64,000 nucleotides of DNA, from NCBI RefSeq assembly GCF_018918125.1, contig NZ_JAHLQA010000043.1:1-64000 (forward strand), written 5' to 3'. The stretch comes from Blautia sp. MSJ-19 (GTDB lineage: Bacteria; Bacillota; Clostridia; Lachnospirales; Lachnospiraceae). Positions within the stretch are counted from its first letter, which is position 1, and each line of letters begins with the position of its first letter. The notes beneath the pieces were generated by a model that was not told the origin of the DNA, did no database searches, and saw only the letters and a program-made list of their open reading frames with translations. Shown in pieces: positions 34,554 to 59,680 of this stretch. The position numbers were made by a program, and so were the translations under genes.

Positions 34554-35738
34554 TTATTTGTCGTACTGTGACATGTAGTTGTTGACGCATTTTTTGATTC
34601 TGTCTGCCGGATTAAGCAGATGGCTGACAGACATATCATGATTCAGTGTATCAATGATCAGAGCGATGTATTTGCTCAGATCACAGCTGATGTAGTAATC
34701 TCTTGCGAGAAGTTCCGGATCCTGATAAACAAGGTTGGTAGTAAGAAGTTTATCGAAGGTTCCTTTTGCGTAAGCTGCGTCGAATTTTTCCATTCCTTCT
34801 GTGAACAGACCGAAAGTTGTGCAGATGAAGATCTTTCCTGCTCCACGTTTTTTGAGGAGAGAAGCGATCTCAAGGATGCTGCTTCCGGAGGAAATCATAT
34901 CATCGATCAGGATGACATCTTTGCCTTCGAGCTTTGGTCCAAGGAACTCATATGCAGCGATCGGATGACGGCCTTTGACAACCTTGGTGTAGTCCAGTCG
35001 TCTGTAGTACATACCCATATCTACGCCGAGTACGTTTGCAAGGTAGATAGCTCTGCGCATGCTTCCTTCATCCGGGCTGATGATCATGAAATGTTCGTTG
35101 TCAATATGAAGGCCTTTTTCATTTTTGAGAAGGGCTTTGATGAACTGGTATGCAGGCTGGATGGTTTCAAATCCATGAAGCGGAGTCGCATTCTGTACAC
35201 GGGCATCATGAGCATCGAAAGTGATGATGTTCTCCACACCCATTTTGGTGAGTTCCTGCAGAGCAGATGCACAGTCCAGAGATTCACGTCCGACACGTTT
35301 GCTCTGACGGCTCTCATAGAGGTATGGCATGATAACGTTGACTCTGCGGGCTTTGCCGCCGATTGCAGCGATCGCACGCTTCAGATCCTGAAAATGATCA
35401 TCCGGGGACATCATATTGGTGTATCCGCTGATGTTGTAGTTGATGCTGTGGTTGCAGACATCGACCATTACATAGATATCGTCACCACGAACGGATTCAC
35501 TGATTTCACCTTTTCCTTCACCGGAACCAAAACGAGGAGTTTTGACATTGACAATATAGGAATCACGCTGATATCCCTCAAATGCGCAGGTGCCTAATTC
35601 GTCGTTTTCACGCTCTTTTCTCCATTTTACAAGCCATTCATTTACTTTTTCGCCAAGGGGACGGCAGCTATCGAGGGGAATAAGTCCCAGCCTTCCTACA
35701 GGAAGTGTTGTCAGTTCCTTGTTGTTTAACTGTGCCAT
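34554..35738 (-). CDS. prs: Ribose-phosphate pyrophosphokinase
   Basis: Makes PRPP from ribose-5-phosphate and ATP. At 394 residues it is longer than the usual ~315, with an extended N-terminus and insertions around KWRKERENDELG. ISESVRGDDIYVMVDVCNHS, YLYESRQSKR and FDAHDARVQN correspond to the known active-site stretches, and the PRPP loop reads VILIDDMISSGSSI where typical enzymes have VDDxIDTGGT. This divergent form is common in my recollection of Lachnospiraceae. AGGAGGAAAA precedes the ATG. It is the last gene of the dnaD-dnaI-prs operon, three bases behind the helicase-loader gene. Confidence 0.9.
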   Translation of the reverse strand: MAQLNNKELTTLPVGRLGLIPLDSCRPLGEKVNEWLVKWRKERENDELGTCAFEGYQRDSYIVNVKTPRFGSGEGKGEISESVRGDDIYVMVDVCNHSINYNISGYTNMMSPDDHFQDLKRAIAAIGGKARRVNVIMPYLYESRQSKRVGRESLDCASALQELTKMGVENIITFDAHDARVQNATPLHGFETIQPAYQFIKALLKNEKGLHIDNEHFMIISPDEGSMRRAIYLANVLGVDMGMYYRRLDYTKVVKGRHPIAAYEFLGPKLEGKDVILIDDMISSGSSILEIASLLKKRGAGKIFICTTFGLFTEGMEKFDAAYAKGTFDKLLTTNLVYQDPELLARDYYISCDLSKYIALIIDTLNHDMSVSHLLNPADRIKKCVNNYMSQYDK

Positions 35739-35741
35739 CGT

Positions 35742-36731
35742 TTATTTTCCTCCTAAAAATATTTTCTGTATTCGGATATCTTTACCGATCAGCTTCAGCA
35801 TCTGGTAATTACTTGCTATCCGGGAAAAGGTTCTCTCGGAATAGGTTGCTGAAAAGTCTTCAAGTTTCAGGTTGGTTGATATGATCGTTGATTTGCGGCG
35901 GGCAATACGCTCGTTGATACACAAAAACAACTGTGAAGAAACGAAGCTGTTGGTCAGCTCAGTTCCAAGATCGTCTATAATAAGAAGATCGCAGTCAAAA
36001 ATAAAATCATCACCCGGATCTGCCTCGGACCTTCGTGAGAAGGCTGTCTGTGCCAGCCGGTCAAACAGATCAAAAGCAGAAAAGTACAATACGCAGTGAG
36101 CAGTCTTGAGCAGCTCATTGGCAATACAGTGGGAAAGAAATGTTTTTCCTACCCCGGTGCTGCCATACAGAAACAGATTCTGTGTGCGTCTGTCGAAATC
36201 CCGGACAAAATCCCGTGCCGTATCATAGGCGCGTTTGGCAGTGTCGCGGGCGGTAAGTCCGGTTGCTTCATTTTTTATTGTATCAGAATACCAGTCAAAA
36301 GAAAAGTGTTCAAAGTTTTCTTTTTTGAGAATCTCAGTCAGATTGGACTGCGTATAGAGCAGTTCGATCTCGGATTTTTTGAAACAGGTGCATTTATGAC
36401 CGTCTACATAGCCGGTATCCTGACAGATCGGACAGAAATAATGAGGCTCCAGATAGTCTGCACTGAATCCATTCTGGCGGAGCAGGGAAATGCGCTCCTG
36501 TGCCAGAGCAGCGACCTCGGCTTTGAGGTCATCCACGGAACCGGACTCTCCCTGCAGAAGGGAGCGGGCTTTCTGTGCACTCAGAGCAGCTACCTCCTGG
36601 TCGATTTCCAGAAGACGGGGAACCCGGATAAATGCTTCGCGGCGCCGTTCTTCCAGATCATGCTGGACCTGTGACTGACGGCGATTGTATTCTCTCATGA
36701 TGATATCATACTGAAAGTTCTGTAAAGCCAC
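35742..36731 (-). CDS. DnaC/DnaI-like helicase loader ATPase
   Basis: A 329-residue AAA+ ATPase related to DnaC/DnaI, which loads the replicative helicase. The N-terminal part has a zinc-like cluster, HYFCPICQDTGYVDGHKCTC (about 123-142, four cysteines). The AAA+ core has Walker A NLFLYGSTGVGKTFLSHCIA and Walker B CDLLIIDDLGTE, followed by RRKSTIISTNLKLEDFSATY with the sensor-1 asparagine. GTG start after GGAGATT. It lies 11 bases downstream of the DnaD-like gene. Confidence 0.92.
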   Translation of the reverse strand: MALQNFQYDIIMREYNRRQSQVQHDLEERRREAFIRVPRLLEIDQEVAALSAQKARSLLQGESGSVDDLKAEVAALAQERISLLRQNGFSADYLEPHYFCPICQDTGYVDGHKCTCFKKSEIELLYTQSNLTEILKKENFEHFSFDWYSDTIKNEATGLTARDTAKRAYDTARDFVRDFDRRTQNLFLYGSTGVGKTFLSHCIANELLKTAHCVLYFSAFDLFDRLAQTAFSRRSEADPGDDFIFDCDLLIIDDLGTELTNSFVSSQLFLCINERIARRKSTIISTNLKLEDFSATYSERTFSRIASNYQMLKLIGKDIRIQKIFLGGK

Positions 36732-36742
36732 GGCAATCTCCT

Positions 36743-37807
36743 TTACTGGTTGAGCAGATGTTTTTCGTATTCGTCAAAATTGTATTCTCTCTGCTGGAAA
36801 TTATTGAAACGGTTACTGGAAGCAGCGGGAGCCGGTTTGGAAGCGCTTTGTTTTCGCGCCTGTTTTCTTTTCTGGTGTTCGCTGTCCAGAGCGCGGACAT
36901 CATCCAGTGTACGGACTTCTTTCTTTTTCCAGCCTTCCAGGATCTTGTCGGTATACTGGAAACTGGCCTGTCCGGTCTGGAGAACGGTACGGTTACATGC
37001 TTCCTGAATGATCTCCATGGAAAATCCGTAGGTTTTGAGCCAGGTATCCATCAAAGTGATTTCTGTATCTACCGGGTTGCGGTTGGTGATTCCCAGAGCT
37101 TTGAGAATGGAAAAATACTCTTTGCTGTAGCGGGAACCGGACTGCTTGGCTTCTTCTACAGAAGTAATGCCTTCTTCGGTCCATGCGAGAGCAACCTTTT
37201 CGATGTAGCGGATGCTCTTGTGGTTATGACCGACGCAGTATTCAATCAGATATTCGATCAGGTCGGCAGGCATCTCCAGTCCGTCATAGAAAAACAGAAT
37301 CTTCTGAATTTCTGTCGGAGAAAGAGTCTTGCCAAGGTACTGCTCAGAAACATAAAGAAGCTGAATGATGTCTTCGTTTTGCTTCAGTTCCCTTACACGG
37401 TCAGGAGTGAGGGCATCTGTACGCAGCGGCGAACTCGGTGTTTCGACATCCTGTGATGCTGACAGGTCAGAAGTGCCGGCGATCTCATGCGGCACAGCGG
37501 CAGAAGAACTGCCCGGTGTGAGCAGGGAAATGCCGCAGAGTTTGTTACTGTCTGTGAAATCCAGAGAAAGAAGCTGCTGTTTTGCCCAGTATTTTAAAGC
37601 CCTGAGGATGTCACGCTCCGTACAGAGAAGGCGGTCTGCCATCTGCTCAAGACTGAAAGAAACCGGAGCACTGGAAAGAGCACGTAAAAGGTAAATATAG
37701 ACTTTTACAAATTCTCCATTGGCCTCCGGCATATAGTTGTCGATAAATGTGTTCGATAAGATCGTAACCTCCGGCTGGGAGGTCGTATGTAATGTGATCA
37801 TTGCCAT
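36743..37807 (-). CDS. DnaD-domain primosome protein
   Basis: A 354-residue replication initiation protein of the DnaD/DnaB(Bsu) family. The N-terminal ~100 residues are a winged-helix DNA-binding domain (KVYIYLLRALSSAPVSFSLE, then LLCTERDILRALKYWAKQ), followed by two DnaD domains: about 170-225 (EIQKILFFYDGLEMPADLIE) and about 235-310, the latter with the typical ITLMDTWLKTYGFSMEII and YTDKILEGWKK. A basic tail ends the protein. It heads the operon that also encodes the loader, matching the B. subtilis dnaB-dnaI pair. Confidence 0.9.
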   Translation of the reverse strand: MAMITLHTTSQPEVTILSNTFIDNYMPEANGEFVKVYIYLLRALSSAPVSFSLEQMADRLLCTERDILRALKYWAKQQLLSLDFTDSNKLCGISLLTPGSSSAAVPHEIAGTSDLSASQDVETPSSPLRTDALTPDRVRELKQNEDIIQLLYVSEQYLGKTLSPTEIQKILFFYDGLEMPADLIEYLIEYCVGHNHKSIRYIEKVALAWTEEGITSVEEAKQSGSRYSKEYFSILKALGITNRNPVDTEITLMDTWLKTYGFSMEIIQEACNRTVLQTGQASFQYTDKILEGWKKKEVRTLDDVRALDSEHQKRKQARKQSASKPAPAASSNRFNNFQQREYNFDEYEKHLLNQ

Positions 37808-37856: not shown

Positions 37857-37903
37857 CAGATACCGCAGGATCAGGTATTCTGCGGCTGTTTTGGAACACT
37901 TGG

Positions 37904-37932
37904 ATTATAGCACAAGATTTTTCAAATGAGAA
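37904..37932 (-). promoter_or_regulatory. Extended -10 promoter of the dnaD operon
   Basis: On the minus strand TGCTATAAT (TATAAT at 37904-37909) makes an extended -10; the -35 region is poor (TTCTCA). The start site would be near 37897, about 90 bases before the dnaD ATG and 70-90 bases from the nearest DnaA boxes. Confidence 0.6.
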
Positions 37933-37968: not shown

Positions 37969-38163
37969 TGTGGATAATGTGGATAATGTGGAAAGTAGTT
38001 CAGAAAATAAATTATGTGCAACCGCATAAAATGACGAAGTTTATTGTATTTTCTCGAAAAAATACAAAAGTCGACACGATATTATGTAAAGTAAATGGGC
38101 AAAAAAAATCCACATGCCATACACGGATAAAAATGTGTATAAACATGTGGATAATGTGGATAA
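37969..38163. promoter_or_regulatory. DnaA-box clusters flanking an AT-rich segment
   Basis: The DnaA-box 9-mer TGTGGATAA (reverse of TTATCCACA) occurs perfectly four times: 37969-37977 and 37978-37986 in direct abutting tandem, and 38146-38154 and 38155-38163 likewise. TGTGTATAA at 38134-38142 has one mismatch, and a decayed copy TGTGGAAAG abuts the first pair. All point the same way. About 150 A+T-rich bases lie between, including the palindrome TTGTATTTT/AAAATACAA (38044-38067). The clusters fill the gap between murC and the dnaD operon. Confidence 0.8.
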
Positions 38164-38164
38164 C

Positions 38165-39544
38165 TTACTTTCCGAGAAGCTGTTCTCCAATATTTACAAC
38201 GTCTCCGGCTCCCATAGTTATCAACAGGTCGCCCTGTGTACAATTTTCTAATAAAAAGTTTTCGATTTCGTCAAAGGTCGGGAAGTATTCGCATGGTGTG
38301 CCAAGTTCCGCGATCTTTTCCTGAAGATTTCTGGAGGAAATCCCCAGATTATCAGTCTCACGGGCTGCATAAATGTCTGCCAGTACGACATGATCTGCCA
38401 GAGTCAGCGCTTTGGCGAATTCCGGAAGAAGAGCTTTGGTACGTGTATAAGTATGTGGCTGGAATACACACCAGATCTTTTTATGTGGATAATTCTTTGC
38501 GGCATGAAGCGTTGCTTCAATTTCTGTCGGATGATGTGCATAATCATCGATGATAGTGACGTCGCCGACCTTGCCCTTGTACTGGAAGCGACGGTTTGTT
38601 CCGCCGAAATCCTTGAGACCTGCAAAGATTACTTCTGTGGAAAGGCCAAGAAGCTCACCGGCAGCAACCGAGGCAAGGGCGTTGGAAACATTGTGGATTC
38701 CAGGTACGCTCAGAGAACAGATGCCAAGATCTTTGCCATTGTGCAGAACGTGGAAAGTCGCATGGCCGAGTTTGTTGTAGGTGATCTCAGAAGCGGTATA
38801 TTCAGCAGGATTTTCCAGGCCGTAGGTAATTACTTTACATGGAAGGTTTTCGGTGATCATTTCATGCTTTGGTGTATCTGCATTGATGATCAGAGCTCCT
38901 TCAGCCGGAAGCAGTTCTGCAAATTTGCGGAAGGAATGACGGATATCATCAATGTCCTTGAAAAAGTCCAGATGGTCTGCATCAATGTTCAGAATGATAC
39001 CGATCGTCGGGAAAAAGCTCAGGAAGCTGTTGGTGTATTCGCATGCTTCTGTCAGGAAGGTTTCGGACTGTCCGACACGGATGTTGCCGCCGATTGCCGG
39101 AAGGATTCCACCGACGCTGATGGTCGGGTCACATTCTCCCTTGAGCAGGATGTGAGAAAGCATGGAAGTCGTTGTGGTCTTGCCATGGGTTCCGGCAACT
39201 GCGATAGAAGTGTCGTAGTTGCGCATGATCTGACCGAGAAGCTGTGCTCTGGTCAGCATAGGAATGCCTTTTTCTTTGGCACAGGCAAATTCCGGGTTGT
39301 CCGGGTGAATGGCTGCTGTATAGACAACCACCTGAACAGAATCGGAAATGTTGGAAGCGCGCTGACCGTAATAGATTTTGGCTCCTTTGCTTTCCAGAAG
39401 ACTGGTCAGAGGGCTTTTTTTGGAGTCAGAACCGGAAATGATAAATCCCTCTTCCAGAAGAATCTCAGCAAGTCCGCTCATACTGATGCCGCCGATTCCG
39501 ATAAAATGGATCGCGAGCGGTTTATGAAAGTCTATCTGATACAT
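38165..39544 (-). CDS. murC: MurC, UDP-N-acetylmuramate--L-alanine ligase
   Basis: Adds the first amino acid of the peptidoglycan stem peptide. The 459-residue Mur ligase has IHFIGIGGISMSGLAEIL at the start, the ATP loop VAGTHGKTTTTSML, LTEACEYTNSF, IDADHLDFF and the VIDDYAHHPTEI motif of MurC. TAAGGAG lies close before the ATG. Transcription runs left towards dnaD; the palindrome at 38044-38067 may end it. Confidence 0.96.
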   Translation of the reverse strand: MYQIDFHKPLAIHFIGIGGISMSGLAEILLEEGFIISGSDSKKSPLTSLLESKGAKIYYGQRASNISDSVQVVVYTAAIHPDNPEFACAKEKGIPMLTRAQLLGQIMRNYDTSIAVAGTHGKTTTTSMLSHILLKGECDPTISVGGILPAIGGNIRVGQSETFLTEACEYTNSFLSFFPTIGIILNIDADHLDFFKDIDDIRHSFRKFAELLPAEGALIINADTPKHEMITENLPCKVITYGLENPAEYTASEITYNKLGHATFHVLHNGKDLGICSLSVPGIHNVSNALASVAAGELLGLSTEVIFAGLKDFGGTNRRFQYKGKVGDVTIIDDYAHHPTEIEATLHAAKNYPHKKIWCVFQPHTYTRTKALLPEFAKALTLADHVVLADIYAARETDNLGISSRNLQEKIAELGTPCEYFPTFDEIENFLLENCTQGDLLITMGAGDVVNIGEQLLGK

Positions 39545-52089: not shown

Positions 52090-52176
52090 TAAGAAAATAA
52101 ATACGGGCAAAGCAGTCGAAAGGCTGTGACGCAAAGCTACAGGGCCTGTGAAATGGCAGCCAGTTGCATAAATATA
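52090..52176 (+). ncRNA. c-di-GMP-I (GEMM) riboswitch aptamer
   Basis: The sequence has the GEMM-I pattern: GGGCAAAGC, a GAAA tetraloop in AGTC-GAAA-GGCT, the joining GTGACGCAAAGC, then GGGCCT...GGCAGCC, the tetraloop receptor arm, and CAGTTGC. It precedes an expression-platform terminator and a hybrid sensor kinase gene. Binding of c-di-GMP should change termination. Whether ligand turns the gene on or off cannot be told from sequence alone. Confidence 0.93.
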
Positions 52177-59413: not shown

Positions 59414-59680
59414 TTTCCGCGCGCCGCACTTCGAAATGTTCCCATGGACGTTACCTCTACAGTTAACTCGGCCCAGGCACCCTCACGGCACACAAGAGCT
59501 TCTGCTTAGTGCTGCTACATTCCTGTCCTGACACGGTTCACAGATTCCTGTTGCGTGAGACCCAAACGTCAACGCCACTTATAAAGGGCAGCTCCACAGG
59601 AGACAAACCTCAGATTGGCATCACCCCTGCTGTAGCGGATTGCAGGTACAGGGCACCGCTATCTCCCCGGCTGCGCGGAC
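59414..59680 (-). ncRNA. ffs: Signal recognition particle RNA, large bacterial type
   Basis: A ~267-base RNA on the minus strand resembling B. subtilis scRNA. From 5' it has the Alu part (GCCGGGGAGATAGCGGTGCC and GCAATCCGCTACAGCAGGGG), a long central helix (GTTGACGTTTGGGTC), and helix 8 (59511-59534) with GTGTCAGG and AGCAGCA flanking a GGAA tetraloop. The three base pairs under the loop read ACA/TGT where the common form is TCC/GGA; both strands changed, so pairing is kept. Then TGCCTGGGCCGAGTTAACTG returns, as in scRNA. The 5' and 3' ends (CCGCGC / GCGCGG) pair. Exact ends are within a few bases. Confidence 0.95.

Follow-up and report, generated by a model that had tools for sequence, protein, structure and literature searches.

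The window, by which we mean the whole 64,000-nucleotide stretch of DNA that was analysed, carries a dnaD-dnaI-prs operon on its minus strand with murC as its upstream neighbour (38165..39544, minus strand; TIGR01082). The operon comprises a dnaD-like gene with two DnaB_2 (DnaD) stretches (36743..37807, minus strand; PF07261, TIGR01446), an AAA+ ATPase gene of the dnaI/dnaC helicase-loader type (35742..36731, minus strand; NF005304 above cut-off, PRK08939 DnaI more weakly and below cut-off) and a prs-type ribose-phosphate pyrophosphokinase gene (34554..35738, minus strand; NF005299, TIGR01251), with 11 and 3 bp between consecutive genes. The order murC-dnaD-dnaI-prs was found in all 11 loci of sufficient length (11 of 12; the twelfth ended too soon). 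A DnaD-like gene also adjoins a helicase loader in C. difficile (PMC5204125).

The murC-dnaD gap is 357 bp long and holds four perfect boxes of the sequence TTATCCACA, the stated DnaA-box consensus for low-G+C Firmicutes (PMC5749712), arranged as two abutting pairs in the same sense as murC, dnaD, dnaI and prs. Read as TGTGGATAA, the perfect copies lie at 37969, 37978, 38146 and 38155, all in a single orientation. In the first array, box A1 (38155..38163, minus strand) is one base 3' of the murC stop codon and is abutted by A2 (38146..38154, minus strand); box A3, TTATACACA (38134..38142, minus strand), has one mismatch. The second array consists of B1 (37978..37986, minus strand) and the abutting B2 (37969..37977, minus strand), together with a degenerate third abutting repeat, CTTTCCACA (37987..37995, minus strand), read directly from the sequence; TTTTCCACA-type neighbours are present in related genomes. 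The 147 bp between the two box groups are 30.6% GC, compared with 45.5% for the window. The initial annotation, which had described four perfect boxes in one orientation, one single-mismatch copy and an AT-rich centre, was thus accurate in each of these respects, and we confirm that the box observation is real. One further perfect copy lies at 38484, within murC.

These boxes are strongly enriched. The window contains 5 perfect boxes where shuffled sequence gives 0.56, and the source genome (3,565,090 bp) contains 67 (28 and 39 by strand) versus 7 copies of the reversed pattern. At that genome-wide density, which the initial annotation had suggested counting, four boxes in 195 bp have a Poisson P of 7.5e-12, or 1.4e-7 when multiplied by the number of such stretches. 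The gap is the densest box group in the genome; the region upstream of the genome's own dnaA has only 3 perfect boxes, within 218 bp, and perfect abutting pairs occur at just two places, both in the murC-dnaD gap. There is therefore a local excess of consensus boxes away from oriC, as in an extra-origin DnaA-box cluster (DBC). Such density is also compatible with a locus that stores DnaA or times initiation, as do the B. subtilis clusters and E. coli datA; DnaA would be bound there to limit initiation, and the place before dnaD would be incidental; deletion of six DnaA-box clusters in B. subtilis leads to early initiation.

The initial annotation had also likened the layout to a miniature origin. 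Abutting tandem boxes do occur at the genome's own oriC2 (TTTTTCACATTATTCACA), where they are followed by a CCCCCTAAGGCGG tract, and the bipartite clostridial oriC (PMC7561715, PMC5749712) has two box groups around AT-rich DNA, as does the gap. In the clostridial origins, however, the groups bracket dnaA and one of them carries a DnaA-trio or unwinding element, whereas there is no dnaA near the gap (as the initial annotation had noted; the gene is on another contig, C11) and, by eye, no oriC2-like GC tract after the box pairs. GC skew was followed in 20 samples of 20 kb from G001, which is not the source genome but another member of the genus, assembled as a single contig. One change of sign falls between 3.59 Mb and 20 kb, where dnaA is located (position 122), and the other between 1.70 and 1.91 Mb; dnaD is at 335 kb, and the flanking samples (207 kb and 394 kb) share one sign. 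On the G001 skew and the lack of oriC2 features we reject the miniature origin, and we consider a cryptic or auxiliary replication origin extremely unlikely.

Comparison with close relatives, another check that had been proposed, showed that the arrays are conserved. In a genus set of 37 genomes, including our own, at least two perfect boxes were present in 30 gaps and an abutting pair in 28 (one gap, L055, has no murC on its contig); altogether there were 112 boxes in the sense orientation and 0 in antisense. An alignment of 30 genus gaps contains both arrays, an inverted box and a promoter-like TATTCTC...TTGTGCTATAAT. The remaining 7 of the 37 gaps have no perfect box, so the arrangement can be lost; six are shorter than 140 bp (L056, L057, L058, L060, L063 and L071) and the seventh, L069, is 265 bp. 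The genus alignment also contains a conserved GTTTCCCATAATT-like element and, in some members, ACATAATTCGACA; the latter includes TTCGACA, which we take to resemble a Spo0A box.

Conservation extends across the family. Among 150 Lachnospiraceae genomes representing 150 genera, dnaD was found in 146 among the matches listed, and we analysed the gaps of the best-scoring 80, one genome per genus, in which the dnaD match begins no later than residue 18. All 80 have murC upstream of dnaD. Perfect boxes are kept in 67 of these gaps, at least two in 55 and an abutting pair in 40; the boxes number 184 in sense and 9 in antisense orientation, and the reversed control pattern 0. Their density is about 8.9 per kb in the gaps (193 in 21.7 kb), whereas the neighbouring murC coding sequence has 13 boxes over 50.3 kb. 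Of the 66 genera with a sense box, 53 have their first box beginning no more than 3 nt from the murC stop, and 81 of the 184 sense boxes are 75 nt or more from it. The gap is devoid of perfect boxes in 13 of the 80 genera, and in nine of these it is longer than 150 bp. The abutting 18-mer pair occurs at at least 150 genome places, in at least 83 genomes; among the matches listed, 85 of the 150 places are within 1.5 kb upstream of dnaD and on its strand (59 genomes), and 65 are elsewhere. At the level of the order, 24 genomes of other families were examined, one per family, and 22 could be analysed (of the other two, one had no dnaD match and one was truncated by the end of its contig). In 9 of the 22, dnaD is preceded by one or more perfect boxes, and in 6 no murC was found in the stretch. 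The arrangement thus exists outside the Lachnospiraceae but is patchy there.

The upstream pair overlies the region of the murC stop codon, and box A2 forms the 5' arm of a murC intrinsic terminator (38101..38152, minus strand). The hairpin runs from 38152 to 38108, with the ATCCACA of A2 as the 5' base of the stem and an inverted box, TGTGGAT (38114-38108), in the 3' arm, and it is followed by a T-run at 38108-38101; A3 lies largely within the stem. The RNA fold is -20.5 kcal/mol (z -4.49), and none of 200 shuffles was as good. A simple terminator pattern scan with a loop limit of 3-8 did not list this hairpin, and Rfam gave no match at the gap. The stable hairpin and T-run after the gene are those of an intrinsic terminator, and the putative DnaA boxes at it are as in an asnC-type roadblock terminator. 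This overlap had been overlooked in the initial annotation.

The terminator is itself conserved together with its boxes. ATCCACA, TGTGGAT and a T-run are found together, with a fitting loop, in 53 of the 81 sequences (our own and those of the 80 genera), at 29-30 nt in 43 of these. With the last box as the 5' arm, the five pairs next to the stem base are Watson-Crick at a fraction of 0.717, versus 0.322 with arms swapped between genera and a maximum of 0.392 in 1000 such swaps; with the first box the values are 0.389 and 0.298, and a figure of 0.740 is reached when the best box is chosen. For 32 hairpins of equal length the covariation score was 0.396 versus 0.073 shuffled, a score in which the seven outer pairs are invariant by selection and just three inner pairs are informative. 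In a scan of the first 190 nt that made no use of the box, a terminator-like hairpin was found in 72 of 81 sequences; in 51 of the 72 the 5' arm contains TCCACA and the 3' arm TGTGGA, and in the other 21 the box is missing from one or both arms. From the covariation and the 51 box-based hairpins we conclude that the upper part of the stem drifts through compensated changes and that its base has often retained the box.

Could the first pair be a murC terminator and nothing else, its likeness to DnaA boxes arising from the stem sequence? The strong hairpin with its T-run and covariation is what this explanation would predict. But the outer box A1 is outside the stem, yet abutting pairs are found in half of the family gaps; no T-run hairpin was seen at the second cluster; many of the sense boxes, 81 of 184, are well away from the murC stop; and stems built on the box recur even though the upper stem drifts and the search ignored the box. 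As a full account, we reject the terminator alone on the grounds of A1, the distant boxes and the recurring box-based stems, and we judge the explanation very unlikely even for the first pair. Moreover, at loci where murC has a different terminator (for example L160 and L189) the box pair is displaced downstream and still kept, which suggests that they serve some purpose other than termination.

A second motif accompanies the boxes in part of the gaps. TTTACATAA (38082..38090, minus strand) recurs in some other genera at a fixed distance past the inverted box: TKACATAA is present within 60 nt in 21 of the 53 gaps that contain TGTGGATW, at offsets of 14-15 in 15 gaps and 26-27 in 6. TKACATAA occurs in 24 of the 80 dnaD gaps versus 1.8 in shuffles, and inverted in 3 of 5 oriC1 regions; the motif in the window could be a site for a partner protein. 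Its co-conservation in some gaps is also what one might see if the ligand were a different protein with a TTATCCACA-like site, and the abutting spacing departs from the double-box rule of E. coli, where DnaA prefers boxes 2-3 bp apart (PMC11317965). We nevertheless regard a ligand other than DnaA as very unlikely, since the sequence matches the consensus for low-G+C Firmicutes and is clustered upstream of the genome's own dnaA.

Downstream of the arrays is a promoter-like element of the dnaD operon (37904..37932, minus strand), consisting of TTCTCA, a 17-nt spacer and TATAAT with an extended -10 (TGCTATAAT). The pattern has a single match, which does not exceed the shuffled mean of 2.6 and is not significant by itself, so the evidence for the promoter is its conservation, seen in the genus alignment. 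Across the family, 65 of the 67 sequences that have a sense box show an extended -10 beyond the last one, at a median distance of 70 bp (32-119 bp in 61 of the 65), and in the window the second pair is about 60 bp upstream of the conserved extended -10. The arrays are therefore upstream of the core promoter and do not overlap it; conserved boxes at a similar distance before a promoter-like element are what a DnaA-regulated promoter would be expected to have. A pure reservoir, by contrast, would need neither the association with dnaD in 67 of 80 genera, nor the near-uniform orientation, nor the typical distance to the -10. A separate hairpin is present in the dnaD leader at 37863-37885, and its sequence differs between L034 and L035.

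We also looked at the helical phasing of the arrays. Over 44 genera, the array-to-array spacing is best described by a periodicity of 11.0-11.1 bp (P at most 0.0025); in a strict set of 14 genera the best fit is 9.8 bp (R 0.774 versus 0.719 at 11.0). With distinct spacing values only, P was 0.06, 0.02 and 0.25, and with relaxed boxes 0.009, 0.07, 0.47 and 0.17. Common descent and the 9-bp repeat can both contribute to such a signal, and the strict set prefers 9.8 bp, so that we treat the phasing as suggestive only; DnaA-mediated looping between the arrays is possible. An apparent phasing of array 2 with the -10 was rejected: it reached significance over all sequences, with a best period of 9.8, but was gone when distinct distances were used (P 0.70), and it may reflect no more than the 9-bp repeat.

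Taken together, these features suggest that the gap is probably a DnaA-controlled, terminator-insulated promoter region for dnaD-dnaI-prs, in which DnaA binding, a block to read-through and an effect on the promoter are deduced from sequence. DnaA would bind the two arrays facing the dnaD promoter. At array 1, merged with the murC terminator, the hairpin, probably helped by a DnaA roadblock, would insulate the operon from murC read-through. Array 2 would set the output of the dnaD-dnaI-prs promoter, probably activating it when few DnaA molecules are bound and perhaps repressing it when an ATP-DnaA filament spreads towards the promoter; for the sign of the effect, we lean slightly to activation over repression. 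Because DnaA would set the output of the operon, the supply of helicase loader would follow initiator activity. This proposal is supported by the clustering, orientation and conservation of the boxes before a promoter-like element. It is weakened by the boxless gaps (13 of 80 genera, 7 of 37 in the genus) and the 21 of 72 box-poor hairpins, by the position of the boxes away from the core promoter and their 0-bp spacing, at odds with the E. coli rule (PMC11317965), and by the 65 of 150 listed 18-mer places that are not upstream of dnaD. The feedback on primosome synthesis proposed in the initial annotation thus stands in so far as boxes before dnaD-dnaI-prs are conserved across the family, and the miniature-origin part is not supported.

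Several known systems resemble parts of this arrangement. DnaA regulates replication and nucleotide genes elsewhere, as at E. coli nrdAB and C. crescentus dnaB or dnaQ (PMC8203912), where it likewise acts as a transcription factor, although on different genes and in different phyla. In B. subtilis, 71 genes altered upon replication inhibition have at least two potential DnaA sites (Goranov et al. 2005), and the DBCs (PMC5295017, PMC4447404, PMC13220808) are likewise dense and away from oriC, some of them before DnaA-regulated genes (sda, ywlC and others). The passages found on these clusters, however, name no primosome operon, the dnaB-dnaI operon of the initial annotation included, and describe no merging with a terminator, unlike the murC-dnaD gap. 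E. coli DnaA can also block RNA polymerase as a roadblock (PMC11317965), and it attenuates transcription at the asnC terminator and at datA (PMC10950094); both papers cite Schaefer and Messer 1988 for the asnC roadblock. DnaA boxes are located at the terminator there, as they are at murC, but in the gap they are themselves the hairpin arms, precede a helicase-loader operon and recur family-wide. A DnaA-dependent riboswitch has been proposed for the his operon (PMC10989985), with a DnaA-box-like sequence inside terminator/attenuator RNA, as in the murC terminator; that element is a Gram-negative leader attenuator, whereas the one in the gap is a predicted 3' terminator of murC. The box/terminator arrangement was not described in the titles, abstracts or passages found by our literature search, which covered mostly openly available papers.

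If DnaA does act at the gap, the initiator would determine how much helicase loader is available for it to recruit, and feedback on the loading step could be tested directly in a major gut family. That one and the same sequence is a likely binding site for a protein in DNA and the stem of a terminator in RNA, in dozens of genera, makes for an unusual regulatory design. A more ambitious version, which we consider doubtful, is a family-wide circuit from initiator to loader: DnaA would bridge arrays a whole number of turns of about 11 bp apart, through boxes that also serve as arms of the RNA terminator, and gate both murC read-through and the dnaD promoter, with a second DnaA-box module as a datA- or DARS-like partner. 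If true, the replication cycle would be linked to transcription of cell-wall genes, to helicase loading and to the supply of PRPP.

The second module is a conserved feature of relatives, again with an abutting perfect pair (L108-L118, L238-L254, L256 and L257; at about position 2000 in each). The set comprised 11 genus sites (L108-L118) and 20 from other genera (L238-L257), reduced to 19 when L255 was set aside; L119-L121, L156 and L157, which matched no second-site neighbour gene, were, like L255, left out of the counts. Next to each of the 11 genus sites is a V-ATPase D, TrxB-like or NlpC/P60 gene, as named by Pfam on L109. In the other genera, 15 of 19 have an NlpC/P60 or TrxB-like match or a downstream open frame, at some sites, that we take to be HPF-type, and 4 have none of these. 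In 28 of 30 second sites a TTAT box-like element comes immediately before the pair. At a fixed offset, TKACATA is present in 11 of 11 genus sites and AACRNAYGTT likewise in 11 of 11; in other genera they occur in 2 of 19 and 6 of 19, respectively, with backgrounds of 0.0165 and 0.005 in the G001 samples.

In some genus genomes (for example L108 and L109) the second site is between convergent genes and has no obvious promoter target, which again suits a reservoir; its resemblance to datA or DARS, as a dispersed DnaA site, is one of layout only. Given the features of the murC-dnaD gap that a reservoir would not require, we think it rather unlikely that the gap is primarily such a store, and continue to favour DnaA control of the dnaD promoter region. 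The source genome (47 contigs) seems to be without the second module: no second site was found in it by DNA similarity, nor was the neighbouring ntpD gene, in a search without a positive control, and six stretches around weak matches or other boxes held no abutting pair (one, L264, is within an open reading frame). Rfam gave no match in 8 second-site loci; in the window it identified a c-di-GMP-I riboswitch at 52096-52171 and a large SRP RNA at 59417-59678.
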